Source of the DNA: Natronosalvus caseinilyticus
GTDB taxonomy: Archaea; Halobacteriota; Halobacteria; Halobacteriales; Natrialbaceae
Assembly (NCBI RefSeq): GCF_017357105.1
Contig: NZ_CP071596.1
Span: 1,116,001-1,180,000, forward strand
DNA: 64,000 nt
Direction of reading: 5' to 3'
Under the pieces are notes generated by a model that was not told the DNA's origin, ran no database searches, and saw nothing but the letters and a program-made list of their open reading frames with translations. Shown piece by piece: positions 9,147-27,138 of this stretch (the first letter of the stretch is position 1; the number at the start of each line of letters is the position of its first letter). The position numbers were made by a program, and so were the translations under genes.

Positions 9147-9508
9147 CGTGGCAGCCAATATTCCGAAGTCGCATAAGTTTCTGTCCAATACACATTGGTT
9201 CGTGACTCGAGACCGGTGGTGAGTTGGGACAGCCGGCTCCAGAGGCCATTGGTTATAACGAATTACACGATGGTGGCCGCTGGAACGCGAACTGTGACGG
9301 TCTCCAGTAGGGCTGGCGGCAGTAGGTTTATAACACCATGCCGCTGGCTGGTGGATTCGAACTGTGACGAAACGTAGCGAGCGCGACGGGGTTACACCGT
9401 ATCGGGGGAATTAATGGTAATTCAGCCCGGATTTCGGCGTTTCAGGGATTTCGAGTTATTTCCCACCATTTGGTCGCCGTCATCGTGTGGTTCGCGACCC
9501 AACGAACC
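9147..9508. other. Left flank of the recombinase-bounded block
   Basis: No gene is seen in this interval. It holds two AT-rich TATA-like boxes, GGTTATAACG near 9250 and GTTTATAACA near 9326, a palindrome-like GAATTAATGGTAATTC around 9409-9424, and the candidate att remnant at 9381. The chromosome-like histidine kinase ends to the left, and the recombinase gene begins to the right. Confidence 0.45.
9381..9390 (+). repeat. Candidate left attachment remnant (copy of tRNA-Arg 3' end)
   Basis: The ten bases GCGCGACGGG, followed by NTT, recur at 36923-36932 inside the 3' end of tRNA-Arg(CCG), in the same orientation. The accessory region lies exactly between the two. Ten GC-rich bases can recur by chance in this genome, so this is a weak candidate. 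Confidence 0.25.
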
Positions 9509-10519
9509 ATGACACTCGAACCGATCGATCCCGAAACCGCGTTAGAACTGTACCTAGCTGAACGAGAAACCGAGTGCTCGGAGGCGACCATCTACTCCCA
9601 CCGGATGCGGCTCGGCTTCTTCCTCCGCTGGTGTGGCAAGCGAGACATCGAGAACCTGAACACCCTTACCGGCCGTCGACTGCACGAGTACCGGCTGTGG
9701 CGGCGGAACGTCGGCGACCTCTCGAAGACCAGCGAAAAGACACAGATGGACACTTTGCGGGTGTTTATCCGGTGGCTCGAGAGCATCGACGGCGTCGAAC
9801 AGGATCTCCACCTCAAGGTCCTGTCGCCAAACGTCACGCCGGACGAGAATACGCGAGACGTGATGCTCGACGCCGAGGACGCGGAGCCGATGCTCGAGTA
9901 CCTCGAGCGGTACGAGTACGCTTCTCTCGAGCACGTGACGCTGTCGCTGTTCTGGCACACGATGATGCGCGTCGGAGCCGCCCGCGCACTCGACCTTGAG
10001 GACTACGACCCGGAGGGGCAGTGTCTCGAGGTCAGGCACCGCCCCGAGTCGGGAACGCCGATCAAGAATCAGCGGCGTGGCGAGCGCATGGTCGCGCTCT
10101 CGGGCGGCACGTGCATCCTGCTGGACGACTGGATCAGGGATCGGCGACCCGACGTGACCGACGACCACGGTCGTCGACCGTTGCTCGCGACGGTCCAGGG
10201 TCGGGCAGCGATCAGTACGCTACGCAAGTACTGCTACCAGCACACGCGTCCATGCGTCTACTCGGGCAAATGTCCACACGACCGCGATCTCGAGGCGTGT
10301 GAGGCGACGGGCGAGACCGGATCGTCTTCGTGTCCCTCGAGCGTCAGTCCACACGCCTTTCGGCGAGGGTCTATAACTCACCACCTCAACAGCGACGTGC
10401 CGGAGACGGCGGTCGGTGATAGAGCGAACGTGAGTCAGGAGGTACTCGCACAGCACTACGATCAACGATCAGAGCGAGAGAAGATGGAGCAGCGACGACA
10501 GTATTTGAACAACATCTGA
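9509..10519 (+). CDS. Tyrosine recombinase A, left boundary of the repeat array
   Basis: A 336-residue tyrosine recombinase. An N-terminal SAM-like arm-binding domain (EPIDPETALELYL...SHRMRLGFFLRWC) precedes the catalytic domain, with R154 (MRVGAARAL), the H282-x2-R285 pair (HAFRRG) and nucleophile Tyr317 (QHYDQR). A Cys cluster between the conserved Arg and His (C249, C255, one more and CPSS) may bind zinc. I start at the ATG giving MTLEPID because the longer frame adds an unlikely hydrophobic leader. A diverged homologue sits inverted at 26023, and the two genes point toward each other across the repeat array. Family members integrate or excise DNA at short sites; that they act on the array repeats is inference. 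Confidence 0.93.
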   Translation: MTLEPIDPETALELYLAERETECSEATIYSHRMRLGFFLRWCGKRDIENLNTLTGRRLHEYRLWRRNVGDLSKTSEKTQMDTLRVFIRWLESIDGVEQDLHLKVLSPNVTPDENTRDVMLDAEDAEPMLEYLERYEYASLEHVTLSLFWHTMMRVGAARALDLEDYDPEGQCLEVRHRPESGTPIKNQRRGERMVALSGGTCILLDDWIRDRRPDVTDDHGRRPLLATVQGRAAISTLRKYCYQHTRPCVYSGKCPHDRDLEACEATGETGSSSCPSSVSPHAFRRGSITHHLNSDVPETAVGDRANVSQEVLAQHYDQRSEREKMEQRRQYLNNI

Positions 10520-10584: not shown

Positions 10585-10786
10585 ATACTAATTGATCACC
10601 CCTTCGCAAATTGGGCCAGATCGCGTGCTACATTCGCGCCCTGTATTCAGCAGATTGTGATCGAACTACCGAGGCGCTGTCAAAAGTGGCGTGCTGAATA
10701 CAGAGCATGAGTGCAGCACGACGACTTCGTTTGTTTCACGTCGAAACCGGTGAACCACCCGCATACTACACGTACTGATTGAGCAC
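10585..10786 (+). repeat. Array repeat, copy a
   Basis: The upstream box TACTAATTGATCACC begins the copy. The core is 10641-10703 with perfect 12-base arms CTGTATTCAGCA and TGCTGAATACAG. A third motif, TGCAGCA, follows at about 10712, then CTTCGTTTGTTTC. A second TACTGATTGAGCAC at about 10773 echoes the upstream box. Confidence 0.9.
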
Positions 10787-10854
10787 TTCCGTATTAGACC
10801 TCCCCACAAAAGCAGGAGAATCCATACGAGTGTAGCGCGTGTATAGTCACGGTA

Positions 10855-11517
10855 ATGAGCGTCATCGTAGAGTTCACAATTGAGGCAGAGGCGTTTACAC
10901 TCGGTAGGGTGCTGTCAGGGCCACCGGTGATGCGTATTGAACTTGAACGAATTGTCCCGACAGGGACATTGGAAATGCCGTTCGTGTGGGCGACCGGAAC
11001 CGACTTCAACGCGTTCGAAACGAAGGTACGTGATAGTCCCTACGTGAAAGAACTCCGCGCCCTCGACAGAATCGGGGACAGCGGTCTGTATCGGGTCGAA
11101 TGGAACGTTCCCCGCGAGGACAACCTCATGGAAGGGATTGCACAGACGAACGCAACCGTCCTCGAAGCGCGCGGGGGCGACACGTGGGAGTTTCGACTTC
11201 GCTTTAACAATCACCATGCCCTCTCACAATTTCACAACTATTGCGTCGCTCATGACTTCCCACTCTTCATCGAACGCACCTACACGTTGCAAGAGACGAC
11301 CGGCAGTGGCCACCAGCTCAACCTCTCGCAGAAACAACGCGAAGCGCTCGTCCTCGCCCTCCAACGGGGATATTTCGGCACGCCACGAGAAACCTCCCTC
11401 GACGAGTTGGCGGACGAACTTAGCCTCTCAAAGCAGGCACTATCAGACCGCATTCGTCGGGGCAACGAGAAGGTACTTCGCTCTGTGTTGCTCTCTTCAG
11501 TAGCCAACTCCGACTGA
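10855..11517 (+). CDS. HTH-10 (bacterio-opsin-activator type) transcriptional regulator
   Basis: A 220-residue regulator. The N-terminal ~145 residues form the sensory region of this haloarchaeal family (begins MSVIVEFTIEAEAFTLG, includes RIELERIVPTG and the WEFRLRF strand). The C-terminal ~70 residues are the HTH-10 domain: LSQKQREALVLALQRGYFGTPRETSLDELAD, then LSLSKQALSDRIRRG with the recognition helix. Three further full or partial HTH-10 genes lie in the same array (22149, 23293 and a fragment at 25000). Cargo of the a-b segment, directly after repeat a. Targets unknown; it may control the DUF7344 gene behind it. Confidence 0.9.
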   Translation: MSVIVEFTIEAEAFTLGRVLSGPPVMRIELERIVPTGTLEMPFVWATGTDFNAFETKVRDSPYVKELRALDRIGDSGLYRVEWNVPREDNLMEGIAQTNATVLEARGGDTWEFRLRFNNHHALSQFHNYCVAHDFPLFIERTYTLQETTGSGHQLNLSQKQREALVLALQRGYFGTPRETSLDELADELSLSKQALSDRIRRGNEKVLRSVLLSSVANSD

Positions 11518-11530
11518 CTGGGAGTGGACG

Positions 11531-11541
11531 GTATAAAAATA
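11531..11541 (+). promoter_or_regulatory. TATA box before the DUF7344 gene
   Basis: GTATAAAAATA is a strong archaeal TATA-like sequence. It lies 52-62 bases before the ATG at 11593, so a short leader is predicted, and it gives the DUF7344 gene its own promoter. Confidence 0.55.
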
Positions 11542-11592
11542 ACCGGATTGATCAAGACACACACTCTCCCACCTAAGACTGGTACGTGTCGT

Positions 11593-11946
11593 ATGCCACC
11601 TGCCACTAATGACGATGAGTCCGCTTCCTTACAGGCAGATATCGCAGTTGGTGACGTGTGTTCTGTGCTTGCAAATGAGTGGTGCCGTTCGGTCCTCTAC
11701 TACTTTCAGGAATCAACGCCCACTGTGGCGTCGTACGAAGCCCTCATCACGCACAGATGCAAGCATGACGATACCATCGACACTCGGGAGCAGGCAGCCA
11801 TCGCTCTCCAGCATGTTACACTGCCAAAATTGGAAGAAGCCGGAATTATCGAGTATGATGGACGCAGTTCCTCCGTTCGGTATCGGGGGTTTCCGCAGTT
11901 GGAGACGATGGTCCGTCTTGTAGCCGAAATGGAAGATGAACTATAG
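11593..11946 (+). CDS. DUF7344-type winged-helix protein
   Basis: A 117-residue protein with the haloarchaeal DUF7344 pattern: VCSVLANEWCRSVLYYFQES, a basic middle part, then ALQHVTLPKLEEAGIIEYDGRSSSVRYRG. This reads as a small winged-helix DNA-binding fold. The family has no assigned function and often sits next to HTH-10 or HalOD1 genes. The first ATG giving an acidic N-terminus is used. Two relatives occur in other array segments (12954 and 25134). Confidence 0.75.
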   Translation: MPPATNDDESASLQADIAVGDVCSVLANEWCRSVLYYFQESTPTVASYEALITHRCKHDDTIDTREQAAIALQHVTLPKLEEAGIIEYDGRSSSVRYRGFPQLETMVRLVAEMEDEL

Positions 11947-12002
11947 CACGGGTCCTCCTTTTTCACCTTGATATTATCTGAATAGCCCGCTACATGTATT
12001 CG

Positions 12003-12156
12003 CTGTACTGAGCGATCACCGTCTTCGCTGATCGAGCCAAATGTCGTGCATCATTCGCGCCCTGTATTCAGCAGAGACTGAACGTTCTGCTCAGATTTTG
12101 TCAGATAGGCTGCTGAATACAGAGGATCAGTTCAGCAATCTGGTTTAATTTGTTCC
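12003..12156 (+). repeat. Array repeat, copy b
   Basis: Upstream box TGTACTGAGCGATCACC; core 12062-12122 (61 bases) with perfect 12-base arms CTGTATTCAGCA / TGCTGAATACAG; third motif TTCAGCA at 12131; then TTTAATTTGTTCC. The loop differs from copy a throughout, so the arms are what is conserved. Confidence 0.9.
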
Positions 12157-12254
12157 AGTCGAAGTTTGTTGAATATATTGATTGGCAGATTTTCGAACGT
12201 ACCCACTGAGGTCTCTATCGTTTCTGGTGGTAGTCGCTGTTTGGCTCTGATTCC

Positions 12255-12686
12255 TTACGAATAGGACGGCATCCGAACCTTCTCAATCCAAAACTCCCCC
12301 AGAGACTGAATTAGATCGACAAACGACCCAGGATTGGTAGGCTTCGTCAAGTAAGCGTTCGCGTGTTGTTCATAACTCAAAATAACATCATCACTGCTTG
12401 CCGAACTGGTCAGCACAATCACTGGAAGCTGCCTCAGTTCAGAATCGCTCTTAATCTCCTCTAACACGTCAAATCCGTTTTTGCGGGGCAAATTCAAATC
12501 CAGCAATATCAAATCAGGGCATGGTGCTTCTTCGTCTTCTAAGAACTCGATTGCCTCAACTCCATCTAAGGCGACATGGGTTCTTACGTCAAATCCAGCA
12601 TCTTGAAAGGCTATCTGAGTTAACCGAACGTCGCCAGGATTATCCTCTACAAGCAATATAAGGGGAGTTGAATCGTTTTCAGTCAC
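12255..12686 (-). CDS. CheY-like single-domain response regulator
   Basis: A 143-residue receiver domain with no output domain. The acidic pocket is seen in ILLVEDNPGD, the phosphoacceptor Asp in DLILLDLNLPRKNG, the conserved Thr/Ser in VIVLTSSASSDD and the Lys in AYLTKPTNPGS. This is the haloarchaeal stand-alone receiver type, phosphorylated by hybrid or PAS/GAF kinases. I use the GTG at 12686 (VTENDSTPLILLVEDN); a TTG three codons upstream is also open. It is transcribed against the neighbours in the b-c segment and is more AT-rich than the chromosome. Confidence 0.92.
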   Translation of the reverse strand: MTENDSTPLILLVEDNPGDVRLTQIAFQDAGFDVRTHVALDGVEAIEFLEDEEAPCPDLILLDLNLPRKNGFDVLEEIKSDSELRQLPVIVLTSSASSDDVILSYEQHANAYLTKPTNPGSFVDLIQSLGEFWIEKVRMPSYS

Positions 12687-12953
12687 GTATATCAATGGGT
12701 TTCCGTCGTATATTCGAAGTCGCCTGAATAATTGAATCCATCATTGTTAAATCTACTCGCCAATTACTTTAGTAGCTGATCGGAGAGATTGTCCCTCGCC
12801 CCAGCAACGACTTGTCTTCTACTGAGTAATCGCTACTCATTAGCTCGACGGACTGACGCCGACTTTATACCCTCCGCTTTTCTTGAGTTCTAAGAGGCTT
12901 TACCCAAAATAATTTGGCAATTTCTTTTTTGTAGTCCCGTCAGAAGAAAGGCC

Positions 12954-13268
12954 ATGGACCTAATCTTCACGGCATTGTCCGCTGGCCCGCGTCGCCGAGT
13001 CCTGGCCGAATTGTACGACCAACCAGTAGATGGCGTACAGGTCCCCGAGGCCATTCTCAATGACGGGGAGGAACGAAGAGATCTCGAAATCGCGTTGTAC
13101 CATAAACATCTTCCCCTGCTGGATGATTACGGTTTCATCGACTGGGACCCAAAGACGAACAGAGTAGCGAAGGGGCGCAGATTTGACGACCTCCAACCGG
13201 TTCTTGAATCATTCAACGACCAGGCTGACGAAGTCAGCATTCCGTGCCCCCGAGAGGCCCAGTCGTAG
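12954..13268 (+). CDS. DUF7344-like winged-helix protein
   Basis: A 104-residue protein starting MDLIFTALSAGPRRRVLAELYDQ, the classic opening of haloarchaeal small winged-helix regulators. It continues with ALYHKHLPLLDDYGFIDWDPKTNRVAKG, which matches the wing of DUF7344 proteins. No sensor domain is present. The divergent response-regulator gene lies 270 bases to the left. Function unknown, likely DNA binding (inference from fold). Confidence 0.7.
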   Translation: MDLIFTALSAGPRRRVLAELYDQPVDGVQVPEAILNDGEERRDLEIALYHKHLPLLDDYGFIDWDPKTNRVAKGRRFDDLQPVLESFNDQADEVSIPCPREAQS

Positions 13269-13382
13269 GCGTACACCTGAGGTCATGATCTCCGTGGGGC
13301 GTATTGAGTAACGGATCACTGGCTCCAGGGGTGGCGTCGTCGATCAGCAATCATTTCTCCCTGGTAAATTGGCTTTGAAGCC

Positions 13383-13497
13383 GTGACACATTCGCGCTCT
13401 GTATGCAGCAGGCAAGATCGGAACTGGCGAGTTGTTGGCAAAAGCGCCCTGCTGAATAGAGAGGTCCTATGCAGCACGACTCCTTCAGCTATTTCGA
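13383..13497 (+). repeat. Array repeat, copy c
   Basis: Core 13399-13461 (63 bases) with arms CTGTATGCAGCA and TGCTGAATAGAG (two mismatched pairs). Third motif ATGCAGCA at 13469, then a diverged CAGCTATTTC. The upstream box is not recognisable in this copy. Confidence 0.85.
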
Positions 13498-13734
13498 GCG
13501 GTCGTAGCCGAACCAACCGAAATAGAAGCTGCGAATCTATCACTGTAGCCCTATTTGAGCGGGGTCGAATCGGCTCGGGAAATGGAACCGCACACAGGCT
13601 TCTCTGGTACGAGCTCCGACCCGGCTACAGACGACCGCCGATACAGTTGCTCGTAGTTTCCGACCCCGCTTCTTGTGAGAACGTCTCCTACTATCTTATG
13701 CACGTGCGGAACCTAATGATAGATGGTGACAGAC

Positions 13735-14169
13735 ATGGCCGCCACAACCACGACGGAGGAGAACAAGCAAATTGCACGTCGCTTCCCGGAAGAAGTAGCG
13801 ACGAAGGGAAACACCGACGTTCTCGAGGAGATATGCGCCGAGGACGTAATTGACCACAGCCCGCTCGGGGAGGCACGAGGCCTCGAGGAACTCGAGGATC
13901 AGATGGAATTCCTTCGCAGCGCGTTCGGGGACTTCTCGGCCACCGTCGAGGACATCGTCGCCGAAGGAGATACCGTCGCGATGCGGGTTACCCTTCGAGG
14001 GACCCACAAGGGCGAATTCATGGGTGTCGAGCCAACTGGCCGAGATTTCGAGGTCGGAAATATGGTCTTCACCCGCATCGAAGATGGCAAAATCGCCGAA
14101 CGATGGGTTCAGCCCGATACTCTCGGATTGATGCAACAGCTCGGGGCCGTCGACCGACCCGAAAAATAA
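13735..14169 (+). CDS. SnoaL-like ester cyclase family (NTF2 fold) protein
   Basis: A 144-residue protein with the SnoaL/ester-cyclase pattern: an N-terminal helix (ENKQIARRFPEEVATKGNTDVLEEI), FADDVIDHSP-like ICAEDVIDHSPLGEARGLE, then strands VRVTLRGTHKGEFMGVEPTGR and VFTRIEDGKIAERWVQPD. Family members bind small molecules in a cone-shaped pocket; most haloarchaeal ones have no known substrate. I start at MAATTTTEENK; a GTG four codons upstream is also open. Sole gene of segment c-d. Confidence 0.85.
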   Translation: MAATTTTEENKQIARRFPEEVATKGNTDVLEEICAEDVIDHSPLGEARGLEELEDQMEFLRSAFGDFSATVEDIVAEGDTVAMRVTLRGTHKGEFMGVEPTGRDFEVGNMVFTRIEDGKIAERWVQPDTLGLMQQLGAVDRPEK

Positions 14170-14240
14170 CCTGACCCCCGTTCTTTCAGCGCAAGCGGGA
14201 AAATGCCTCACCGATCGCGCCAATTTGGTGAATACGTGCT

Positions 14241-14486
14241 CTGTACGCATCGCGTCCGTTTAGAACTCCCCAGCAGCTGTCAGAAGCTGTATGCTGAATA
14301 CAGAGGATGGGCCTTGTTTAGACGCGACCGAGATCGGCACTAACGCTTCGCTCTCATAGTATGAAACCGTACTGTGAGGTGCTTACCATCGGATTCTGTT
14401 TAGTCAAATAACTCCTAACCCGTTCATCCAGGAGCGTCTAAACAGGGCTCAGAGGATGGATTCAGCAAACTGATTTCGTTTGTTCC
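14241..14486 (+). repeat. Array repeat, copy d, interrupted by a MITE
   Basis: Core 14241-14303 (63 bases): a diverged left arm CTGTACGCATCG and a standard right arm TGCTGAATACAG. The copy is cut after GAGGATGG by a 139-base insertion and resumes at 14460 with ATTCAGCA and TTTCGTTTGTTCC. Confidence 0.85.
14311..14449 (+). mobile_element. 139-bp MITE with 10-bp target-site duplication
   Basis: The element begins GCCTTGTTTAGACGC and ends GCGTCTAAACAGGGCT, near-perfect terminal inverted repeats of about 15 bases. It is flanked on both sides by the identical ten bases CAGAGGATGG (14301-14310 and 14450-14459), a target-site duplication. It contains no gene. Its mobilising transposase is not in this window, and removing it restores a normal repeat copy. 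Confidence 0.85.
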
Positions 14487-14666
14487 GAATGATCTGTACC
14501 GAATGAACCGTTCAATAGCTCTGCAGAAGTACCTTTTTCTCGTCGGGTTCGCTTGCGTCGCTCGCTCACCGCTCCTCCAAAAATCTACGCTAAAAAGGCC
14601 GCTCGCTCCCGGTGGTCGCTCGCGGGTGCAGCGCTTGCTGCTCGACCGCTGCGGTAACGCCTCGGC

Positions 14667-14742
14667 CTGTACTGACCGATTACTACCCTATGCAGATCGA
14701 CTCTCAGCCGTTTCATATTCGCGCTATCTCGCATCCAATTAC
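14667..14742 (+). repeat. Half copy of the array repeat (d')
   Basis: Upstream box CTGTACTGACCGATTACTACC is followed at the right spacing by ATATTCGCGCTATCTCGCATC, which resembles the left arm type TTGTATCTTGCA. No right arm follows, so the copy is truncated. Confidence 0.6.
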
Positions 14743-14769
14743 GACCGGGGATAGGGGGTTTGGAGTTTT

Positions 14770-15060
14770 TCACCGGACGGCGCGCTCGGCCTCGCCAAAC
14801 GAGACGACGGGCGCGATGTGGGCATCGTGGTCGGTGAGCAAGGGTGGTCCGAGGAACGTAGAGACTCCTTCGAAGGAATCGGCTTCCAGGACGAAGTAGA
14901 ACGTGTGTTCGTTCGGGCAGACGTACGCCCCGTGTATTTCAACGCCAGCTTCCTCGGCCTTCTCAGCCATGCCGTCGATCCACTCGCCAGCTTTTTCTTC
15001 GTTCTCTTCCCGTGCCCAGCAGTTCTCCGTGCTGTGTTCCATGGTAACTACATAGCGCAT
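14770..15060 (-). CDS. DUF3303-like small protein
   Basis: A ~96-residue protein, MRYVVTMEHSTENCWAREEN at the start, then VEIHGAYVCPNEHTFYFVLEADSFEGV and a tail with APVVSFGEAERAV. This pattern (ferredoxin-like alpha-beta with a final Pro-Val) is that of DUF3303-like or DUF4242-like monomers. A GTG at 15069 overlapping the upstream gene as GTGA is an alternative start and would couple translation. Function unknown; paired with the DUF4242 gene. Confidence 0.65.
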   Translation of the reverse strand: MRYVVTMEHSTENCWAREENEEKAGEWIDGMAEKAEEAGVEIHGAYVCPNEHTFYFVLEADSFEGVSTFLGPPLLTDHDAHIAPVVSFGEAERAVR

Positions 15061-15065
15061 TTGTC

Positions 15066-15371
15066 TCACCGAGATCCACTTTCCAGGGTCGCACCACGGA
15101 GATCGATCCGGGTCACCGGAAGTCCCGCACGGTCGGCGTGTTCGTATAGCGCCTCCTCGTTCTCAGCCTGATAGTGACAGAACGTGCCAGTGACCGCTCC
15201 GTCCTCCCGAGTCCGCACATCCGATTTCATCCACCGAATGCCAACACCCTCGTCGGTGAGGTACTCCAGAACCTCCATGGCCTTTCCGGCGGCGGCTTCG
15301 AACGTGTCTTCAGGGATCGGTTCATCAAGGTTTCGAAGGATTAGAAAATCCTCCAGTTCGGTTTCAGTCAT
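15066..15371 (-). CDS. DUF4242-family (SCO4226 nickel-binding-like) protein
   Basis: A 101-residue protein. It includes GVGIRWMKSDVRTREDGAVTGTFCHYQAENEEALYEHADRAGLPVTRI in overlapping pieces, which is the DUF4242 pattern (Ser-Tyr/Asp, then CxYxA, then HA-x2-AG-xP). Family knowledge: SCO4226 from Streptomyces binds nickel at a dimer interface; haloarchaeal roles are unknown. The conserved Cys and His are present. The gene lies first in a two-gene minus-strand unit with the DUF3303-like gene. Confidence 0.75.
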   Translation of the reverse strand: MTETELEDFLILRNLDEPIPEDTFEAAAGKAMEVLEYLTDEGVGIRWMKSDVRTREDGAVTGTFCHYQAENEEALYEHADRAGLPVTRIDLRGATLESGSR

Positions 15372-15584
15372 GTTCGGTCATCTCTCCGCACGAGATGCTA
15401 CAAGCGCCACTTAAATGTAAATGCCTAGTGAAATATTTCACGGAGTGAAAGTAATGTGACGACGTGCCCAACACGGGATTTCGTTAGGCTAATCACCAAC
15501 TCTCACTAGCGGGCTACCAATTTCGGTGCTAAGCAGTCCGTCAGGATACCGCCGAGCGCACTCCATACTGGCTGTCGGGTCGCA

Positions 15585-16412
15585 TCATGGGACCGTAAGC
15601 TCCTCCGGGACGGGTGCATCCATATCGGTCTCGTCTGCTGGCCGCGCCCCCCGGCGGTAGTGCTCAAAGACCGAAAGGGCCCACTCCCGAGCCTTGGGTG
15701 CATCCGTATCGATCCACGCCCGCAGCGCTCTGGTATCGGCGTCGTGACAGCAGATGCCGACGCGATCGTCAAAGATGCCAATGCCACACCGCTCTCTGTC
15801 GGGGAGGTCGTCGTGGACCAGGACGGTGCAGTGATCACGGGTAGCCGCCCGTTCGACCATCTCTGGGTCCCAGGCGACGGTTGCCGCGAGGATGTCCGGC
15901 GGATACACGTACTCGAACTCCATGCCGTCGAGGACCGCCAGACAGACTGTCTCATTGGCGATCGACTTGAACACCGTCGTCCCTAATCCACGCATTGAGG
16001 TACTTCCCTCGACCAGCTGGATGACTCGTGCTACGGGTTCGTACGGGTAGCCTGGCCCCGGGTAGGCGACAACGGCATCCGCGAACAGGTCCACGGTGAA
16101 GCCCTCCATCTCGCGCGGGAGCCACCGCCAGACGTCGCGCAGCCTGCGCTCGGTGTCCATCGCTTCGCGCAGGTCCACGAACCGCTCGGCAACGAAGGTT
16201 CCAAGCGGTGTCAACTGGTACATTCGCCCGATCCGTTCGATCCAGTGCCGCTCCTCGAAGTCGCCGAGAACGCGTCCCATGGTCGGGGACGACGCGCCCG
16301 TCGCCGATCGCAGGTCGTCCCGGTCACAGCGTCCATCAGCGAGTGCGTCAAGCACCCCGACGCGGTGATTCGAACTGGCGATGAATTCGATATCGTTGAT
16401 GGACGAGCCCAT
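15585..16412 (-). CDS. FilR1-domain winged-helix transcriptional regulator
   Basis: A 275-residue regulator. Residues 1-75 are a winged helix of the haloarchaeal ArsR/MarR type (FIASSNHRVGVLDALADGRCDRDDL..., IERIGRMYQLTPLGTFVAERF). The rest is the FilR1/methanogenesis-regulator-like effector domain (VIQLVEGSTSMRGLGTTVFKSI, VHDDLPDRERCGIGIFDDRVGICCHD). The ATG at 16412 gives MGSSINDIEFIASSNHR, the usual opening; the longer frame is not needed. Ligand unknown. It belongs to segment d-e and is transcribed away from repeat e. Confidence 0.85.
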   Translation of the reverse strand: MGSSINDIEFIASSNHRVGVLDALADGRCDRDDLRSATGASSPTMGRVLGDFEERHWIERIGRMYQLTPLGTFVAERFVDLREAMDTERRLRDVWRWLPREMEGFTVDLFADAVVAYPGPGYPYEPVARVIQLVEGSTSMRGLGTTVFKSIANETVCLAVLDGMEFEYVYPPDILAATVAWDPEMVERAATRDHCTVLVHDDLPDRERCGIGIFDDRVGICCHDADTRALRAWIDTDAPKAREWALSVFEHYRRGARPADETDMDAPVPEELTVP

Positions 16413-16529
16413 GTCACGGATACGCACGGCCGCTATAATACGTTGTCTAGTGAGCCCATCGACACTGTGAAACACCCCTCTTCAGACACTACCCCCGGAA
16501 ATACACGAAGGGGCATTAATCAATCCAAG

Positions 16530-16668
16530 TATACTGATTGATCTGTATCACTACACTAAGCGGCTCTCTCACTGCTGCATTTGCGCTGTGTATCTTGCAC
16601 GACCCGAATCATCTACCGAGAATCTGTCAAAGAGAGAGATTACTGAATACAGAGGACGAGTTCAGGAT
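16530..16668 (+). repeat. Array repeat, copy e (mosaic arms)
   Basis: Upstream box TATACTGATTGATC; core 16588-16652 (65 bases). The left arm GTGTATCTTGCA is of the CTTGCA type, but the right arm TACTGAATACAG is of the TGCTGAATACAG type, so the arms pair poorly. A GAGTTCAGGA stands where the third motif is expected. Confidence 0.8.
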
Positions 16669-16728
16669 CGCTCCACGTTCCCTTCATCGCGCCGACAGGG
16701 GTATCTCCTCGGGGAGCATACCGTGCCT

Positions 16729-17658
16729 ATGTCTGCCCAGAGAGCTGCTGGGCTCTTTCTGTTCATGGGAGTGGCGTTCGGCGCCGCCTTCCCGGCGATC
16801 AAGGCTGGATTAGCCGACGCGCCGCCGCTGTTGTTCGCGGCTCTGCGGTACGACCTGGCGGCGCTGCTGTTGGTCGCCTACGCCGCGTTCGTCCTGCGGG
16901 ATTGGCGTCCGCATCGGCGCGCCGACTGGCTGGCCGTTCTCGCGGGAGGTCTGCTGTTCTTCGGGTCCACAGGCTTCCTCTACCTCGGTCAGCAGTACAC
17001 GACCGCCGGCGTCGCGGCGATCATCTACAGTCTCGGCCCCATCCTGACGGTCGTCCTCGCGTGGGTGCTATTGCCCGCCGAGCGTCTCTCCCGACGGGCG
17101 CTGGTCGGCGTCCTCATCGGCCTAGTGGGGGTCGTCCTCGTCGTTCGCCCGACACCTGAAGCGCTGTTCAGCGACGGCTTCCGGGGCAAGCTGCTGGTGT
17201 TGACGGCCATCACGGGCGTCACGCTCGGATCGATCGGGATCCGCAAGAGCGGGTCGCACATGCCCGCAGCGACGACTACGGGCCTCTCGCTGGCGCTGGG
17301 CGGGGCAGTGCTCCACGTCGGGAGTCTCCTGTCGGGCGAACCCCAGGCCGTCGCCCTCACCCCGACGTTCATCGGATCGTACCTCTACCTCGCGATAGTC
17401 GCAACCACGATGGGTTTCGTGGCGTACTTCTCGCTGCTAGACCGGGTCGGGCCCCACCAGGCGAACCTCGTAGTCTATGTCGTCCCCGTCGTCGCCACCA
17501 TCGTCGGGTGGGCCTGGCTGGGCGAGCACCTGCCTGCGGTCACGTTAGCCGGGTTCTTGGTGATCTTCGGGGGCTTCCTCGTGGTCAAGTGGTCCGAACT
17601 GTCCCGGAGCGTCCAGTCCGCCTGGATCAGAGCGCGGGCCCAGCACGCCTGGCGCTGA
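16729..17658 (+). CDS. EamA/DMT-family exporter
   Basis: A 309-residue membrane protein with ten hydrophobic helices arranged as two EamA repeats. The first begins AAGLFLFMGVAFGAAFPAIKAGL and includes ALRYDLAALLLV and GVAAIIYSLGPILTVVLAWVLL; the second includes VTLGSIGIRKSG and YVVPVVATIVGWAWLGEHL. Family members export amino acids, purines or drugs. The start at 16729 leaves a short cytoplasmic tail; the longer open frame runs into repeat e and is not coding. GC content is higher than in other array genes. It is the only gene in segment e-f. Confidence 0.9.
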   Translation: MSAQRAAGLFLFMGVAFGAAFPAIKAGLADAPPLLFAALRYDLAALLLVAYAAFVLRDWRPHRRADWLAVLAGGLLFFGSTGFLYLGQQYTTAGVAAIIYSLGPILTVVLAWVLLPAERLSRRALVGVLIGLVGVVLVVRPTPEALFSDGFRGKLLVLTAITGVTLGSIGIRKSGSHMPAATTTGLSLALGGAVLHVGSLLSGEPQAVALTPTFIGSYLYLAIVATTMGFVAYFSLLDRVGPHQANLVVYVVPVVATIVGWAWLGEHLPAVTLAGFLVIFGGFLVVKWSELSRSVQSAWIRARAQHAWR

Positions 17659-17708
17659 TCCGGCCATTCGATAGAGTACCAGTATGTAGGTGATAATGCG
17701 GCGGATGA

Positions 17709-17820
17709 GTGCTGGATACGCGCCCTGAGTTCAGCACACACCAAATGAATTGCCCGGCTCCTTTCAGAAACGACGTGAGCGACTCAGAGGATGTATGCAG
17801 CACAGCCAGTTCAATTATTT
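17709..17820 (+). repeat. Array repeat, copy f (covariant arms)
   Basis: Core 17725-17787 (63 bases). The outer arm bases changed on both sides: CTGAGT on the left and ACTCAG on the right, so pairing is kept although the sequence differs from CTGTAT/ATACAG. Third motif ATGCAGCA at 17795. Its tail GGAACCAACCGATACATACGG is shared with copy i. Confidence 0.85.
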
Positions 17821-17999
17821 CGCCATCTCTGGGAGGAACCAACCGATACATACGGATGCTTACTTTCGACGCAACCCCTGCTCCCGTATACGATAATTGT
17901 AAGGAATTTCGCCCTTTAAAGAGCGTGTATGTAGACTTTTCCAACGGGAGAGTATACATGCATCTGTAGTTTCATATTCGGACCCCGCGTGTGTCTCCT

Positions 18000-19178
18000 A
18001 TGGATCGAACACGGGTACTAACCACAGGGTTCATCGTACTACTCGCTGTCTGCCTAATCGTCACCCCAGTACTCGCGCAGGAACAGGGCGAAGACGCAGA
18101 AGAAGAGGGCGGTATTGAAGGGCTCATCGAGGGCTTCGTCGAAGGTCAAGGACTACTGGGTGCATTACTCGTCCTCGCTGGCGGTGGGATCTTGCTGACG
18201 GTTTGCGTTGAGAAACTCATCAGCTATCTCACGCGCACGGCGTTCGGCTTGAAAATCTCGTTGTTCGCCCTCGCGATTCTTTTCACGGGATTCGAATTCG
18301 ACGATACGATTCTCGCGCTTGTTCTGTCTGGCGGTGGTCTCGAGGGAGCGGCGCTCGGGACGGCGCTCGGAACCGGCTTAGCGATTATCGGCGTAACGCT
18401 CGCGCTCGCGGCGATCATCAAGCCGTTCCCGGTCGATCTCCCGCCTGATTACGTCGCCCTCTTTGCACTGGCACCCCTTCTGTTACTTCCGTTCGTCCTT
18501 GCCGGGACACTGACCCTCGTTCACGGACTCTTACTACTCAGCGCGTTTGTCGCGGTCTTCGGCTATATCATCGTCCGCGAATATCAGCGCGACATGCCCG
18601 TGTTCCGGAACACCGAACTGGGCAAGGAGATACAGGCCGATGGTGGCATAGCCCTCCCGTCAGCAGTCTCGACAATCCCCGAGGATCGCCTCATTGGCGG
18701 TCGATCTGCCGCGGGCTGGATCTGGCTTGCTCTTTCTATCCTCGCATTGGCGGGCATCGTAGTGGCGTCGATGATGCTGGAGGCGGGATCGGAAGTCGTG
18801 ATTGACGGATTCGGCATCGAAGAGACCGTTTTCGGAGCGACCATGCTAACGGTGATCCTCACCTTCGAGGACGTAATGCTGACGGTCGAACCGGTTCGTC
18901 GAGGGGTCCCCGAGATCGGCGTCGGGAACGTTATCGGGAGCGTTCTCTTCTCGGTGACCGCCAACGTGGGGGTGATCATGTTAGTGAGCGATCTCGAAAT
19001 CTCCCGGTCGGTGCTGACGTTCCACCTGCCGTCGGTAATTCTCATGACGGCACTCGCCGCGTACTTCCTCTATGCGGGCGAACTGAAGCGGTGGCACGGG
19101 TATCTACTCGGCGGGCTTTACGTCGCCTACTGGCTGATCGCGATCCTCATATTTGGTGGCGTACCAATTAGCGGGTAG
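18000..19178 (+). CDS. Sodium/calcium exchanger (CaCA) family membrane protein
   Basis: A 392-residue membrane protein. Residues 1-26 form a signal-like segment (VLLAVCLIVTPVLAQEQ), followed by an acidic stretch. About ten transmembrane helices follow. The two pseudo-repeats resemble CaCA alpha repeats: GFEFDDTILALVLSGGGLEGAALGTALG and, in the second half, TFEDVMLTVEPVRRGVPEIGVGNVIGSVLFSVTANVGVIML. The acidic residues in both halves (DD and ED) fit cation transport; the ion is not predictable. Sole gene in segment f-g. The ATG at 18000 is preferred to a GTG three codons upstream. Confidence 0.8.
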   Translation: MDRTRVLTTGFIVLLAVCLIVTPVLAQEQGEDAEEEGGIEGLIEGFVEGQGLLGALLVLAGGGILLTVCVEKLISYLTRTAFGLKISLFALAILFTGFEFDDTILALVLSGGGLEGAALGTALGTGLAIIGVTLALAAIIKPFPVDLPPDYVALFALAPLLLLPFVLAGTLTLVHGLLLLSAFVAVFGYIIVREYQRDMPVFRNTELGKEIQADGGIALPSAVSTIPEDRLIGGRSAAGWIWLALSILALAGIVVASMMLEAGSEVVIDGFGIEETVFGATMLTVILTFEDVMLTVEPVRRGVPEIGVGNVIGSVLFSVTANVGVIMLVSDLEISRSVLTFHLPSVILMTALAAYFLYAGELKRWHGYLLGGLYVAYWLIAILIFGGVPISG

Positions 19179-19330
19179 GGTACTATCTTCGGTGTTCAGC
19201 GGTCGAAGTCAACGCTTCCCATGCTATTCTAGCCACCCTCTTCGAGAACCCTAAGGCGACTCGATATAGATTGTGAGGCTTCGTTTTATTCGAGGTCACC
19301 GCGGTTGATCGCCACGATCACTACTTCGCC

Positions 19331-19463
19331 TGTACTGATCGATTACCTCTTCGGAGATCGAGTTAAATCTCGTGCTGCATTCGCCCTCTGTATTCAGCAA
19401 ATCGTGATCGAATTATCGGGGCGCTGTCAAAAATAGCGTGCTGAATACAGAGGATGTATGTAC
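19331..19463 (+). repeat. Array repeat, copy g
   Basis: Upstream box TGTACTGATCGATTACC; core 19388-19450 (63 bases) with arms extended to 14 perfect pairs (CTCTGTATTCAGCA / TGCTGAATACAGAG). The loop is close to that of copy a. The third motif is degenerate (ATGTACCA). Confidence 0.9.
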
Positions 19464-19548
19464 CAGTAGTGTTCGCATCTCGACTGCTTCCTCAATTCGC
19501 GCCGAAATTGAAGTGGCTATCAGGAAAGTCAGGCAAATCTCGATTTGC

Positions 19549-20001
19549 TTATAGATACGGGGGAACGCGTCGACGGTACGCACGATATTCCTCACCGAAT
19601 TCCTGTTCTAACCACTGCTCCTCCCGATGAGTAGCCCAGTGAGTTATGGCAATCACCGCTGGAAGAAAAAGAGCAATCCACCCGTTGTTCTTGAGCAACG
19701 CGAAGCCTGCGTAGAGCATCGTCCACCCAACGTAGATGGGATTTCGGCTGAATGAGTACGGGCCAGTCGTGACGAGCTGTCGCTCCCCACGACCGATAGT
19801 CTTGGCGACCGAATAGAAGGCCCACCCATTGACGAACACCCCCCATCCGATCAGTGCGAGTCCACAAATCCGGGTAATTGACCGATAACGAGTTATTCGC
19901 CACGGCCGGCGAGCATGCAGCGCACTCCCCACAACGATCCCAGCAACGTGAGGCTCCGGCAACGGAGTGTACTCCCAATATTGCCGAATAATTTGGTACA
20001 T
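19549..20001 (-). CDS. Isoprenylcysteine carboxyl methyltransferase-like (ICMT/PEMT fold) membrane protein
   Basis: A ~150-residue protein with four membrane segments and the ICMT/NnrU-like core: VTTGPYSFSRNPIYVGWTMLYAGFALL, then a final HREEQWLEQEFGEEYRAYRRRVPPYL. The RNP-x-Y and EE-x5-F-x3-Y-x3-Y motifs bind S-adenosylmethionine in the family. The substrate is unknown (a lipid or a thiol). A longer start at 20085 is open but adds a basic tail next to repeat h; the ATG at 20001 is preferred. Minus strand in segment g-h. Confidence 0.8.
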   Translation of the reverse strand: MYQIIRQYWEYTPLPEPHVAGIVVGSALHARRPWRITRYRSITRICGLALIGWGVFVNGWAFYSVAKTIGRGERQLVTTGPYSFSRNPIYVGWTMLYAGFALLKNNGWIALFLPAVIAITHWATHREEQWLEQEFGEEYRAYRRRVPPYL

Positions 20002-20130
20002 CAATCGGTATCCACGTATTCGGTCCGCAAGTCGCTTCCGCCTGCCAGGCCATACGACCCGATATTGGTCACCGGTACTATGCAACTGGAGTAGGTTGAG
20101 TTCGACCTTTTCGACGATTCGACGTGAAAG

Positions 20131-20218
20131 ATTCGCGCCTTGTATCTTGCAGAGACTCGACTAACTACTGGACTGTTGTCAGAAGCGACATGCAAGATAT
20201 AGAGGCTGTATTCATCAT
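20131..20218 (+). repeat. Array repeat, copy h (covariant arms)
   Basis: Core 20140-20202 (63 bases). Left arm TTGTATCTTGCA and right arm TGCAAGATATAG pair through compensatory changes relative to copy a. Third motif degenerate (TATTCATCA). No clear upstream box. Confidence 0.85.
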
Positions 20219-20413
20219 TGACTTATTGAGAAAACACAGCGAAAACACTCGGTCATTCGCTGTGGGAAGAAAGGGTTCAACAGGAATACCTGCCCAATCC
20301 CTCATATAATATTATCAGTAGTATGAGGCTTTATACGTGCGAGTCATAGTAGTTGTACGCAATTTTACCCAACCTGGCAGGGGGTGAGAAAGCGCAAAGA
20401 GAGATACTTCAAA

Positions 20414-20968
20414 ATGTCAATCAATAATGGCGTAGATGTAGAGCAACTCGGCCAAGCAGTCGAAGCAATTACAGCGGAATCAGCGACCGGCCAATTCAGA
20501 TTTCGAGCGGAAACCGAATGGACTGATGGCCTGCAGTGTGTCACGTCGATCAACGATTTCGATCAGGCGGGCGAGCAAATTCATACCCAGGAATTCAAAA
20601 TCGAGGGTGACGAGCCGGAACAAATCCTCGGGAAGCGAGCGGCACCCAACGCGGTGGAACTCCTGCTCGCCGCTCTCGGATCGTGCCTGAGCGTCGGGTA
20701 TGCAGCGAATGCCGCAGCCATGGGTATCGAACTCAATGAACTCCGGTTCGAGCTTGAAGGAGACGTTGACCTTCGGGGATTCCTCGGTATCTCCGACGAT
20801 GTCCGTGCCGGGTACAACACAGTGACCTACACCGCGTACATCGACGCTGACGCATCGGATGAGGAACTCGCCGAGCTGCGTGACCGGGTCGAAACCACGT
20901 CACCGTTGATGGACAACCTCATGAACGCTGTCCAGGTCGAAACTGATCTGGTCTCGGTACAGGGATGA
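20414..20968 (+). CDS. OsmC/Ohr-family protein
   Basis: A 184-residue OsmC-fold protein. It contains AAPNAVELLLAALGSCLSVGYAANA, where the Cys of GSC is the conserved peroxidatic position, and a C-terminal strand-helix part ending VQVETDLVSVQG. OsmC proteins reduce organic peroxides or act as thiol carriers; the second reactive Cys of classical Ohr/OsmC is not visible, so peroxidase activity is uncertain. The ATG at 20414 gives MSINNGVDVEQLGQ; the frame upstream is not conserved-looking. The stop overlaps the ATG of the methyltransferase gene (ATGA). Confidence 0.85.
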   Translation: MSINNGVDVEQLGQAVEAITAESATGQFRFRAETEWTDGLQCVTSINDFDQAGEQIHTQEFKIEGDEPEQILGKRAAPNAVELLLAALGSCLSVGYAANAAAMGIELNELRFELEGDVDLRGFLGISDDVRAGYNTVTYTAYIDADASDEELAELRDRVETTSPLMDNLMNAVQVETDLVSVQG

Positions 20969-21744
20969 ATATCATGTCAAAATCACTTGATGTTAGCAAA
21001 CTCGAACGAGAGGTTAAATCCGTCTATCGAGATGTCGCAGAGGCGCCGACCGAAAGGTATCATTTCGAGATGGGCCGCCCATTGGCGGAACGACTCGGCT
21101 ATTCATCGGAGGATCTCGATGGCATCCCTGAGGAAGCCGTCGAGTCCTTCGCGGGTGTGGGATACCACTTCGATCTCGCAGACCTGCAACCGGGCGACGA
21201 TGTCCTCGACCTTGGTAGTGGGTCCGGAACGGACGCGTTTGTCGCGGCACTCCATGTCGGCGAGACCGGGAGCGTGACCGGGGTAGACATGACCGATGAA
21301 CAACTGGAGAAGGCACGACGGCTCCGTGACGAGGCCGGAATGGATACTGTCTCCTTCGAGAAAGCGTACATCGAGGACCTCCCGTTCGAGGACACAACCT
21401 TCGATGTCGTGATCTCCAACGGGGTCGTCAACCTCTCCGCGGAGAAGGAAGACGTGTTCAGTGAGGTCAATCGCGTCCTCGAACCGAATGGCCGATTGGC
21501 GCTTTCGGACATCATCAGCGAGGAACACATGTCTGAGAGCATCAAGACCGATGCGGATCTCTGGGCGGCGTGTATCGGTGGGGCTGAACAGGTCGATGAT
21601 TATACGATGATGATTGAGACGCCAGGGTTCGACGCCATCGAGATCAGGGAGAATCCACAATACGAGTTTGCCTCTGACCAGGCAGTGAACGCGTGTCAGA
21701 AGTACGGTGTCAAGAGTATCTCGCTCAGCGCCAGCAAACGCTGA
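20965..21744 (+). CDS. ArsM-like SAM-dependent methyltransferase
   Basis: A 259-residue class I methyltransferase with motif I VLDLGSGSGTDAF, the acidic loop GVDMTDEQLEKARR, and the post-motif DVVISNGVVNLSAEKEDVFSEVNRVLEPNGRLALSDI. The tail WAACIGGAEQVDDYTMMIETPGF is the arsenite-methyltransferase region. Of the ArsM arsenic-binding cysteines only the C-terminal one (ACIGGA) remains: the N-terminal Cys pair and the Cys of SFGCG (here SFAGVG) are missing. It may therefore not methylate arsenic. Coupled to osmC by ATGA; an internal ATG at 20974 is an alternative start. Confidence 0.85.
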   Translation: MNIMSKSLDVSKLEREVKSVYRDVAEAPTERYHFEMGRPLAERLGYSSEDLDGIPEEAVESFAGVGYHFDLADLQPGDDVLDLGSGSGTDAFVAALHVGETGSVTGVDMTDEQLEKARRLRDEAGMDTVSFEKAYIEDLPFEDTTFDVVISNGVVNLSAEKEDVFSEVNRVLEPNGRLALSDIISEEHMSESIKTDADLWAACIGGAEQVDDYTMMIETPGFDAIEIRENPQYEFASDQAVNACQKYGVKSISLSASKR

Positions 21745-21903
21745 ATCGAGCGTCGTTTGTTATCCTACCAATGGATACTCTTGATGAATAAAACCCCACA
21801 TTCACCGCGCTATTCGTGGCAAACCCAAAGTAGATCAATCCACAGCCTGACGCTATCTTCTCCGTGGGCAATGCCAACCAGCCCAGCTGAATTACAACCA
21901 TGC

Positions 21904-22012
21904 CGAATATGCGCCTTCTATTCAGCAACAGCTGATCGAACTACCGGGGTGCTGCCAGGAACGTAGTGCGAGATACAGAGAATGGATGCAGCACAGCAAA
22001 TTCGTTTGTTTC
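21904..22012 (+). repeat. Array repeat, copy i (mosaic arms)
   Basis: Core 21916-21978 (63 bases). Left arm TTCTATTCAGCA is of the CAGCA type, right arm TGCGAGATACAG of the CTTGCA partner type, so they pair badly. Third motif ATGCAGCA at 21986, then ATTCGTTTGTTTC. The tail AATCAACCGATACATACGGATGC matches copy f. Confidence 0.85.
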
Positions 22013-22148
22013 ACAATCTTAGGCCGGAATCAACCGATACATACGGATGCAGATTGATCGCTGCTTCAGAGGCAATTGGTGAGAGACATGCGGTCTCGTG
22101 TCAATAGTCGGTGGTACGATACAGGAGATATAGTCTTGTTCAATCTTT

Positions 22149-22796: not shown

Positions 22797-22951
22797 CGGC
22801 AGTCATCCGTGTTCTTTCTCCAGATATCGGTGTCTTCGCAGCCACACTCCGAATACGTCTTTTTGTATGGAGTGATCTTACCGTCAGGTGTTCGTTTTCG
22901 CCCTAGTCGCAGTGTTCCACAGTTGGAACACATCATTCGATACGGAACCAT
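22793..22951 (-). CDS. Small zinc-ribbon protein coupled to the HTH-10 regulator
   Basis: A 52-residue ORF below usual annotation size. It starts MVPYRMMCSNCGTLRLGRKR and has a second Cys pair in YSECGCEDTDIW, giving a CxxC...CxC zinc ligand set. The stop shares bases with the ATG of the HTH-10 gene. Translational coupling, four spaced cysteines and lack of stop codons make it a likely real gene. Haloarchaea encode many one-domain zinc-finger proteins of this size, several involved in regulation; function here is unknown. Confidence 0.65.
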   Translation of the reverse strand: MVPYRMMCSNCGTLRLGRKRTPDGKITPYKKTYSECGCEDTDIWRKNTDDCR

Positions 22952-23019
22952 ACTGCTGACTGTGCGCCGGTTATTGGGTCGGCATCAATTCTTCCTTCGC
23001 TGAATACTGTCAGTTCAAA

Positions 23020-23169: not shown

Positions 23170-23292
23170 AGAGTCAACGACATCAATGCTTTCGGGTGTT
23201 TCTCGAGAGGTGTCATCATAACTAACGACGTGCGCCAGTGGGTTGACAATGGCTTTTGCTCGCGCAACATTCTTTTAAGTGCTGTTTAAGTA

Positions 23293-24805: not shown

Positions 24806-24962
24806 CTGTACTGATCGATCACCCCATCCAGATTGGCTCTCACTTCGTGCGACATTCGCGCTTTGTATCTTGCAGAGGCATAACGAACTACCGAACTGCT
24901 GTCAGAAATGGCGTGCGAGATACAGAGGGCCCATTCAGCACGACGACTTCGTTTGTTTCACG
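24806..24962 (+). repeat. Array repeat, copy j
   Basis: Upstream box CTGTACTGATCGATCACC; core 24863-24925 (63 bases) with arms TTGTATCTTGCA / TGCGAGATACAG, all twelve positions paired if two G-T wobbles are allowed. Third motif ATTCAGCA at 24933, then CTTCGTTTGTTTC. The tail (to about 25005) is nearly identical to that of copy a. Confidence 0.9.
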
Positions 24963-25890: not shown

Positions 25891-25960
25891 CTGTACTGAG
25901 TGCTCACCACTTCGGAGATCGATCTAAATCTCGTACTGCTTTCACGCCTTGTATTTAGCA
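25891..25960 (+). repeat. Array repeat, copy k (left half, right end of the array)
   Basis: Upstream box CTGTACTGAGTGCTCACC, then TTCGGAGATCGATCTAAATCTCG as in copy g, and left arm TTGTATTTAGCA at 25949-25960. No right arm follows before the recombinase B stop codon at 26023. Confidence 0.75.
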
Positions 25961-26022: not shown

Positions 26023-27138
26023 TTACTCCTCTAGAAGCGACCGACGCAATACCTCCTGGCGCTGGCGCATTTTGTCCTCCTCCGACCGAACATCGTAATG
26101 CTCGTCGATGATCGCCGGTGAGACGTTACATCGCTCGCTCACGACCTGTACGTCGACGCCAGACCGGAGGAGCTGCGTGATGTACCCTCGACGGATCGGG
26201 TGGGGCGTCACGCTCGAGGGACACTTCGACGCAAGATCGAGATCGGTGGCCGCGCTGCATTCATCTGGATCTCGATCGTGCGGACACTCAAGACCGATGA
26301 GGCATGGTCGGGACCACTTGTAGACGTACTTTCGAATCGTCGACTTGGCGATTCGACCCTGTGTGGTAGCGAGTAGCGGCACCCGGTCGTGCTGGTCGGT
26401 CACGTCGGGCCGCTGGTGCTCGAGGTAGTCGTCGAGTACCTCGCACGCCTCGTCGGAGAGTCCGACTCGACGCTCGCCTCGAGTACCGTTCTTAATCGGT
26501 GTGTCGGTCTCCGGTCGGTGGACGACGGTCAGGTGGGGGACCTCGGCGTCGCATCGGTAGTCATCGATGTCGAGCGCCCGAGCGGCTCCCATTCGCATCC
26601 CCGTCTCAGACAGGACGAGCCAGACGACGTGCTCGGTCGAGGCGTACTCGTACTTCCTGAGGTGCTCGAGGATCGTTCGGGCACGGTCGGCGTGGATGAC
26701 CGTCTCGCGGGCGTTTTCGCCGTCGGGGATCGCCGGCGACTTGACTTTCTTGAAGAGGCCGGACTCGACCGAGTTGATCGTCTCACACCACTCGACGAAG
26801 ACGCGTAACGTGTCCATCTGCGTCTTCTCGCTTACGACGTTGAGGTCCTCGCGTCGCCAGACGCGATACTCGTGGAGGTCGCGGGCGGTCAGGTCGTTGA
26901 GGTTCTCGAGGTCGCGCTCGCGACACCAGTCGACGAAGAAGCCGAGCCGGGATCGGTGCGCGTCGACCGTCGACTGTCGACAGTCGCGCGCCTTGTCTTC
27001 GAGGTAGAGTCCGAGAGCTTTCTCCGGTTCGATTGGCTCGAGGCTTGTCTCCGTCGCTTCGTGGAGCTGTCGGAGCAACCGCTCGGCATCCGACTCCTCG
27101 ACGATCGTGGGGACGTGATTTGTCTGACTCATTGGCAT
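26023..27138 (-). CDS. Tyrosine recombinase B, right boundary of the repeat array
   Basis: A 371-residue tyrosine recombinase homologous over its length to recombinase A (shared LGFFVDWCRERDLENLNDL, SEKTQMDTLRVF, RMGAARALDIDDY, HRPETDTPIKNGTRGERR). The catalytic Arg, HPIRRG and Tyr (EHYDVR) are intact, and the same Cys cluster is kept (RPCLIGLECPHDRDPDEC...KCPSS). It carries ~35 extra N-terminal residues. Its ATG overlaps the CopG-type gene by ten bases, so a small DNA-binding protein is co-expressed with it. It points into the array from the right. Confidence 0.93.
   Translation of the reverse strand: MPMSQTNHVPTIVEESDAERLLRQLHEATETSLEPIEPEKALGLYLEDKARDCRQSTVDAHRSRLGFFVDWCRERDLENLNDLTARDLHEYRVWRREDLNVVSEKTQMDTLRVFVEWCETINSVESGLFKKVKSPAIPDGENARETVIHADRARTILEHLRKYEYASTEHVVWLVLSETGMRMGAARALDIDDYRCDAEVPHLTVVHRPETDTPIKNGTRGERRVGLSDEACEVLDDYLEHQRPDVTDQHDRVPLLATTQGRIAKSTIRKYVYKWSRPCLIGLECPHDRDPDECSAATDLDLASKCPSSVTPHPIRRGYITQLLRSGVDVQVVSERCNVSPAIIDEHYDVRSEEDKMRQRQEVLRRSLLEE

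Follow-up and report, generated by a model that had tools for sequence, protein, structure and literature searches.

The 140-bp MITE described here lies in a 64,000-bp stretch of the Natronosalvus caseinilyticus genome (the window). It is very probably a trans-mobilized element of the IS5 family that landed, by a 9-bp staggered cut centered on a 27-bp palindrome, in one copy (copy d) of an arrayed repeat. The IS/MITE family to which it is assigned prefers this palindrome, since 39 of 66 elements sit in it in one register, where chance is about 3e-5 per site. MITEs and IS elements have their ends, duplication length, insertion register and target consensus in common, and IS copies are present in the same genome. 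We infer that the palindrome is recognized by the transposase itself and not via a host protein or a cruciform. The features are listed in Table 1.

Table 1. Coordinates of the MITE, repeat d, the repeat array and associated genes and elements. Positions are those of the window unless a contig (C) or locus (L) is given.
Feature	Coordinates	Strand	Remarks
Tyrosine recombinase gene, left end of array	9470..10519	+	ends 107 bp before first repeat; candidate link to repeat
Repeat doublets, array copies	10626..10718; 12047..12137; 13384..13476	+	
Repeat d, first 27-bp palindrome (site 1)	14226..14252	+	
Repeat d, 39-nt spacer	14253..14291	+	
Repeat d, left half TGCTGAATA of interrupted second palindrome	14292..14300	+	
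Target site duplication, 9 bp, left copy CAGAGGATG	14301..14309	.	ends fixed by relatives
MITE, 140 bp, without coding capacity	14310..14449	+	relatives' alignment
Left terminal inverted repeat GGCCTTGTTTAGACGC	14310..14325	+	
Right terminal inverted repeat AGCCCTGTTTAGACGC	14434..14449	-	14/16 positions match left end
Target site duplication, 9 bp, right copy	14450..14458	.	ends fixed by relatives
Repeat d, right half GATTCAGCA of interrupted second palindrome	14459..14467	+	
Repeat doublets, array copies	16573..16667; 17710..17802; 19373..19465	+	
Repeat doublets, array copies	20125..20217; 21901..21993; 24848..24940	+	
Single 27-bp site, 5 mismatches	25934..25960	+	63 bp from 3' end of right-hand recombinase gene
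Tyrosine recombinase gene, right end of array	26023..27138	-	candidate link to repeat
Single 27-bp sites beyond recombinase genes	L281:13483-13509; L290:5259-5285; window 25934-25960		
IS elements with MITE-like ends, own genome	C1:1659607-1660579; C1:3018793-3019723; C2:97766-98742; C2:121540-123489		

The ten bases CAGAGGATGG at 14301-14310 recur at 14450-14459 with 139 bases between them, and the element's ends are inverted repeats. The first-pass annotation had described a 139-bp MITE with a perfect 10-bp duplication. Its identification as a MITE is borne out: the element is short and non-coding, with inverted-repeat ends like those of full-length IS elements. The repeated bases do stand on both sides, but since relatives end in GGCC...GGCC and mostly have 9-bp duplications, the element is best read as 140 bp and its duplication as the 9 bp CAGAGGATG, the tenth repeated base probably being a coincidence. 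Once the ends are fixed from the relatives, a 10-bp duplication is disfavored. With ends fixed in this way, 66 elements show duplications of exactly 9 bp (51), 9 bp with one mismatch (nine) or 8 bp (six), as scored by a script that tested 9 bp before other lengths. The length is common to MITEs and IS elements, 9 bp in 60/66 and 8 bp in 6/66. Six of the 51 exact cases, the window MITE among them, look like 10 bp on account of an extra base identical to the one at the end of the element itself; for four copies, a fit with free boundaries gives 10 or 11 bp.

At E 0.001 or better, 27 matches to the MITE were found in 15 of 125 genomes of the family, the own genome included. Beyond the window copy there are 26 matches with 67-91% identity in 14 other genomes. 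Most relatives are about 141 bp long, with GGCC or a close variant at the start and the complement at the end. The own genome (4.235 Mb, two contigs) contains one full copy and otherwise short weak matches. Three of 72,556 plasmid records, all haloarchaeal, carry the MITE, and none was found in phage records. As single-stranded DNA, 14311-14449 folds by end-to-end pairing (z -3.1; 1 of 200 shuffles equally stable).

The first-pass annotation had proposed searching the genome for a transposase with the same ends, of IS4/ISH8-like size. IS elements sharing the ends do exist, but their transposases belong to the IS5 family. The sequence GCCYTGTTTAGACGC occurs 13 times in the own genome with up to two mismatches (reversed control, nine); its five exact matches are two in the window MITE and three in IS elements. 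Four IS elements were recovered from paired ends with no more than two mismatches to the MITE's 16-bp ends, and in two of the four the frame is open over 287 and 306 codons, counted stop to stop. Full-length relatives cluster at two lengths, about 934 and about 979 bp. All five transposases tested, covering both length classes and including one from the own genome, match DDE_Tnp_1 (PF01609), and 4/4 tested pass the IS5 model NF033579 (179-240 bits; cut-off 140 bits). IS4/ISH8 parentage was rejected, as IS5 is the best model in all four and the IS4 model was matched once only, scoring 20.9 bits where 115 are required. The elements may belong to the ISH1 group of the IS5 family, for which 8-bp duplications are characteristic; the duplications here are mainly 9 bp.

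Compared with IS or 240-bp MITE copies, the MITE has its 40 best matches all at the ends (15-18 bases), and its parent is therefore assigned by the ends alone. The MITE is very probably a non-autonomous member of a haloarchaeal IS5-family group with the 16-bp ends GGCCNTGTTTAGACGC, and the common ends and duplication length indicate movement in trans. Full-length IS copies of about 934 and 979 bp would most likely supply the transposase, which would bind the MITE ends, excise the MITE and join it to a 9-bp staggered cut. Centered on TGCTGAATA-N9-TATTCAGCA, such a cut would duplicate 9 bp and leave a half-palindrome on each side. The 27-bp palindrome is the unit from which the arrayed 93-nt doublet is built, and the MITE entered the second palindrome of copy d.

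The target preference of the group was derived from a family-wide search with the exact end sequence, which is present in 57/125 genomes. The 150 matched ends listed, reaching genome G090, gave 119 regions, 100 of which were examined; genomes after G090, the own genus among them, are represented only via MITE matches. Elements were detected by their ends only, and the flanks were not used. The 66 duplication-bearing elements come from 30 genomes. Their target is a palindrome of 27 bp, TGCTGAATA-(9-bp duplication)-TATTCAGCA, entered in one register: the flanks match it at 13 or more of 18 positions in 39 elements (20 genomes) and at 15 or more in 27/66, where a match of at least 13/18 has a chance of 3.4e-5 per site if all four bases are equally frequent. 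A single genome, G017, accounts for 14 of the 66 elements and 12 of the 39 matching ones; with it excluded, 27/52 match. MITEs and IS copies are alike in this preference, which was found in MITEs of about 140 bp (12/19) and about 240 bp (6/11), in IS copies of about 934 bp (13/19) and about 979 bp (5/10), and in 3/7 others. The window MITE scores 17/18. Among 28 plausible end pairs that have no duplication, 18 have a half-site in register at 7/9 or better (chance 0.0027 each). The first-pass annotation had overlooked the site as a target preferred across the IS/MITE family.

Allowing three mismatches, the own genome has 24 matches to the palindrome and none to its reversed control. A partner palindrome about 66 bp away (at least 18/27 positions) accompanies only 10 of the 39 matching targets, so the target is a single 27-bp palindrome and not the whole doublet; judging from these sequences, a single palindrome seems sufficient. 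A separate search for half-site junctions found Natronococcus, Natrialba, Halorubrum, Haloferax, Halogranum and Haloquadratum among the named genomes; the half-site was itself the query, and this result therefore shows distribution, not preference. The pattern of half-site plus end also occurred once in the bacterium Leucothrix pacifica (L365:711-742), with the partner end absent and about 0.1 chance matches expected by our own estimate. Six IS/MITE copies (L131, L205, L136, L155, L141 and L209) have fair to perfect half-palindromes on both sides and similar but unequal 9-mers, a pattern that an exchange of flanks between repeats following insertion could have produced.

Not all elements home. 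Of the 66, 27 fall below 13/18. Among the own-genome IS copies one scores 12/18, the 1950-bp one is poor, and two without duplication each have one half-site at 8/9; the window MITE is the only strong homing case there. A tree of 30 transposases, labeled with a cut at 11/18 and with seven rows unlabeled, places homing copies in three clades. One well-supported clade (L193, L194, L195 and the unscored L170) has no scorable copy in the palindrome, although its ends are the same as those of its homing kin; L158 is a non-homing exception inside a mostly homing clade. Since L193-L195 and L158 insert elsewhere, homing is a preference that differs between lineages. This argues that the transposase itself may set the preference, in a comparison whose non-homing group is small and whose scored rows (L193, L194 and L195) all come from genome G071. 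Given a related but non-homing clade of transposases that shares these ends, it could be mapped which part of the protein dictates the target.

At copy d, the MITE is preceded by TGCTGAATACAGAGGATG (14292-14309) and followed by the second copy of the duplication and then GATTCAGCA (14459-14467). The split of repeat d that the first-pass annotation had claimed is seen between the left half of the second palindrome and the last motif. Its relative dating also held: joining the flanks raises the score of copy d from 37.1 to 46.7 bits, and as the joined flanks restore a better repeat copy, the insertion is later than copy d itself. Far from being present in all copies of the repeat, the element occurs in full once in the own genome, which has 34 repeat copies. 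An uninterrupted TGCTGAATACAGAGGATGGATTCAGCA at copy d would equal the ancestral state; no empty orthologous site was found for this copy. For other insertions, too, the joined flanks can be aligned over the junction to repeats elsewhere that have no interruption; for L193, whose target is not a repeat, another genome has a matching uninterrupted site (88% over 343 bp).

Two alternatives to target choice appear very improbable. Insertion could be random, with copies in harmless extragenic repeats outlasting the others, and the intergenic position of the window repeats and the 27/66 insertions that lie elsewhere or match poorly would agree with this. Survivorship would, however, favor intergenic space generally, not a base-exact register in a palindrome with 24 places in the own genome. 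It is just as hard to credit that the IS elements spread the repeats themselves, carried along or left after excision, so that the coincidence reflects common descent. The similar but unequal 9-mers beside some copies fit such a history, but the 9-bp duplications vary among insertions, the own genome's 34 repeat copies stand against one full MITE, and several joined flanks align across the junction with uninterrupted repeats elsewhere.

A more serious contender, though still an unlikely one, leaves the target choice in place and assigns it to a palindrome-binding host protein, for example a recombinase, that recruits the transposase. The palindrome has two 9-bp arms, and recruitment by XerC has been proposed for ISAjo2 at pdif (PMC10132070). 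Three tyrosine recombinase genes of the own genome are each followed by a single 27-bp site with five mismatches, about 35, 55 and 63 bp beyond the frame end. Relatives of the window recombinases, on the other hand, were found in only 4/32 array loci, or 5/32 with two further recombinases as queries. Direct recognition by the transposase is the reading we prefer.

Homing to repeats is known from bacteria. PMC1525189 reports REP targeting for members of the IS3, IS110, IS4, IS256 and IS5 families; IS1397, ISKpn1, IS621, ISPpu9, ISPpu10, ISPa11 and ISRm22 target REP sequences, and the IS5-family ISNm1106 has a weaker association with them. Like these elements, the present group chooses an extragenic palindromic repeat as target; they are bacterial, whereas the group here is archaeal, belongs to the IS5 family, includes MITEs of two size classes and makes a 9-bp duplication centered on the palindrome. 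The IS1111-attC group (ISKpn4, ISPst6) is described as site-specific in a foldable site between gene cassettes (PMC11187229), with an RNA-guided DEDD transposase instead of the DDE-domain transposase found here. ISAjo2, of the IS1202 family, combines a DDE transposase and a duplication with a fixed position from the recombinase site at pdif/dif (PMC10132070); its insertions lie 5 bp away from the XerC site and duplicate 5 bp, while those here are at the palindrome center with 9 bp.

Small haloarchaeal elements that land in other repeats are also known from Haloquadratum walsbyi, where, according to PMC3119063, SMR-A insert in near-terminal palindromes and 30/31 MITEs lie in PATEs, which are related to IS605-type transposons, or in IS605-type elements. 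As described there, SMR-A insert without duplicating their target, and their ends resemble those of no known transposon, in contrast to the duplication and IS5-type ends found here; one of the H. walsbyi MITE families could be the present one. No report of this IS/MITE group or of the doublet repeat was found in the titles, abstracts and passages of the open-license literature. In archaea, the present group is a case of DDE IS elements and their MITEs homing to a repeat, with natural insertions numerous enough to define the target base by base.

The repeat is a doublet of 93 nt, made up of site 1 (27 nt), a conserved spacer (39 nt) and site 2 (27 nt), with a start-to-start distance of 66 in 18/21 copies from the examined stretches of the own genome. 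Across 17 aligned copies, site 1 and site 2 show covariation of the kind expected for the arms of a single hairpin (0.218; shuffles average 0.142, with 0/500 as high), a comparison in which kinship alone can exceed shuffles; slid controls are clearly lower (0.054-0.089). Covariation within the palindromes is absent (0.117 against 0.135 shuffled). A known RNA family was rejected for lack of any Rfam match at E 0.1 over window 9000-32000. With a covariance model, the own genome has 34 distinct copies at E 0.001 or better after removal of four reverse-strand duplicates, and the repeat occurs in at least 87/125 family genomes; this survey applied stricter filters and scored no more than 34 candidates in each genome, so its counts are lower bounds. 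Neighboring copies within 4 kb are co-oriented in 46/47 pairs (28/29 excluding the own genome), counted among 35 own copies, one of them weak, and 132 others listed; in an overlapping set of arrays picked for clusters the count is 106/112. The own chromosome has 14 gaps no longer than 4 kb, where a random arrangement would give 0.7. The insertions mark a widespread, co-oriented, hairpin-forming intergenic repeat of haloarchaeal islands and open the way to a search for its function and possible recombinase.

The doublet resembles a REPIN in being an inverted palindrome doublet with a spacer. REPIN doublets are described as randomly distributed, with some in ordered tandem clusters of near-identical copies or beside RAYT genes (PMC3116915); here neighbors are diverged, separated by genes and co-oriented. 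REPINs are linked to the Y1 transposase RAYT, and the four Y1_Tnp genes of the own genome are at least 29 kb from doublet copies. Two likenesses to integron attC sites are evident, namely a pair of inverted simple sites able to fold onto one another and co-orientation along arrays. The doublet differs in having neither a known sequence signature nor an IntI integrase in cis, and it presumably lacks the attC consensus. PMC9668308 reports canonical integrons from archaeal metagenome-assembled genomes belonging to nine phyla, and its main text does not contain the words haloarchaea and Natrialb.

Both tyrosine recombinase genes of the window point inward, one at each array end. For int4, one of the three recombinases of the own genome with a single site past the frame, a like site also follows relatives of 92-94% identity at L329 and, in more degenerate form, L322. 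Most relatives of the left-hand recombinase elsewhere have no site, and this type of integrase was rejected as a constant partner of the repeat: among the best relatives, a clear site lies close to the 3' end of the gene (about 110 bp or less) in only 2/29 scorable loci, L220 (the window itself) and L248, L245 being too short. The own genome has 19 integrase-domain matches, most of them away from repeat copies. Against the XerA/integron-integrase model the window recombinases score 29 and 45 bits (cut-off 220).

Homology ends inside the repeat zone at 40/151 distinct places, while the zone makes up 6.5% of the sequence; this is suggestive of cassette exchange at the repeats, in a count that the shared repeat sequence biases. 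No segment with all four ends in the repeat zone was found. The doublet could be the recombination site of an undescribed haloarchaeal cassette system, integron-like but unrelated to IntI/attC, in which a tyrosine recombinase shuffles the genes that lie between co-oriented, foldable doublets, with the IS/MITE group as its dedicated parasite; we offer this tentatively and regard it as somewhat doubtful. If true, the family would parasitize cassette sites as IS1111-attC elements do integrons.

From 10626 to 25960 of the window, one co-oriented 93-nt doublet lies in nearly every gap between transcription units. The genes between the copies encode regulators (BAT/HTH_10, DUF7344, FilR1-like), a response regulator, SnoaL and SCO4226-like proteins, EamA, a Na/Ca exchanger, OsmC and a methyltransferase. 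Between 10 kb and 36 kb the G+C content drops to 46-61%, recovering to about 64% beside a tRNA-Arg gene at 36920-36992, so that the stretch 10000-36992 looks as it might at an integrated island. Long self-similar repeats occur at L292:2230-4570, near G000:C1:970-973 kb. The segment 24093-24808 (about 716 bp) has counterparts with 82-92% conservation in genomes of its own genus and of two or more others, has a second own-genome copy at 89% (L297) and is perhaps a separate mobile unit. The DUF7344-bearing unit at about 24.87-25.89 kb of the window is duplicated at about 1963.65-1964.70 kb of G000:C1, with homology that begins inside one repeat and ends at the left flank of the next.
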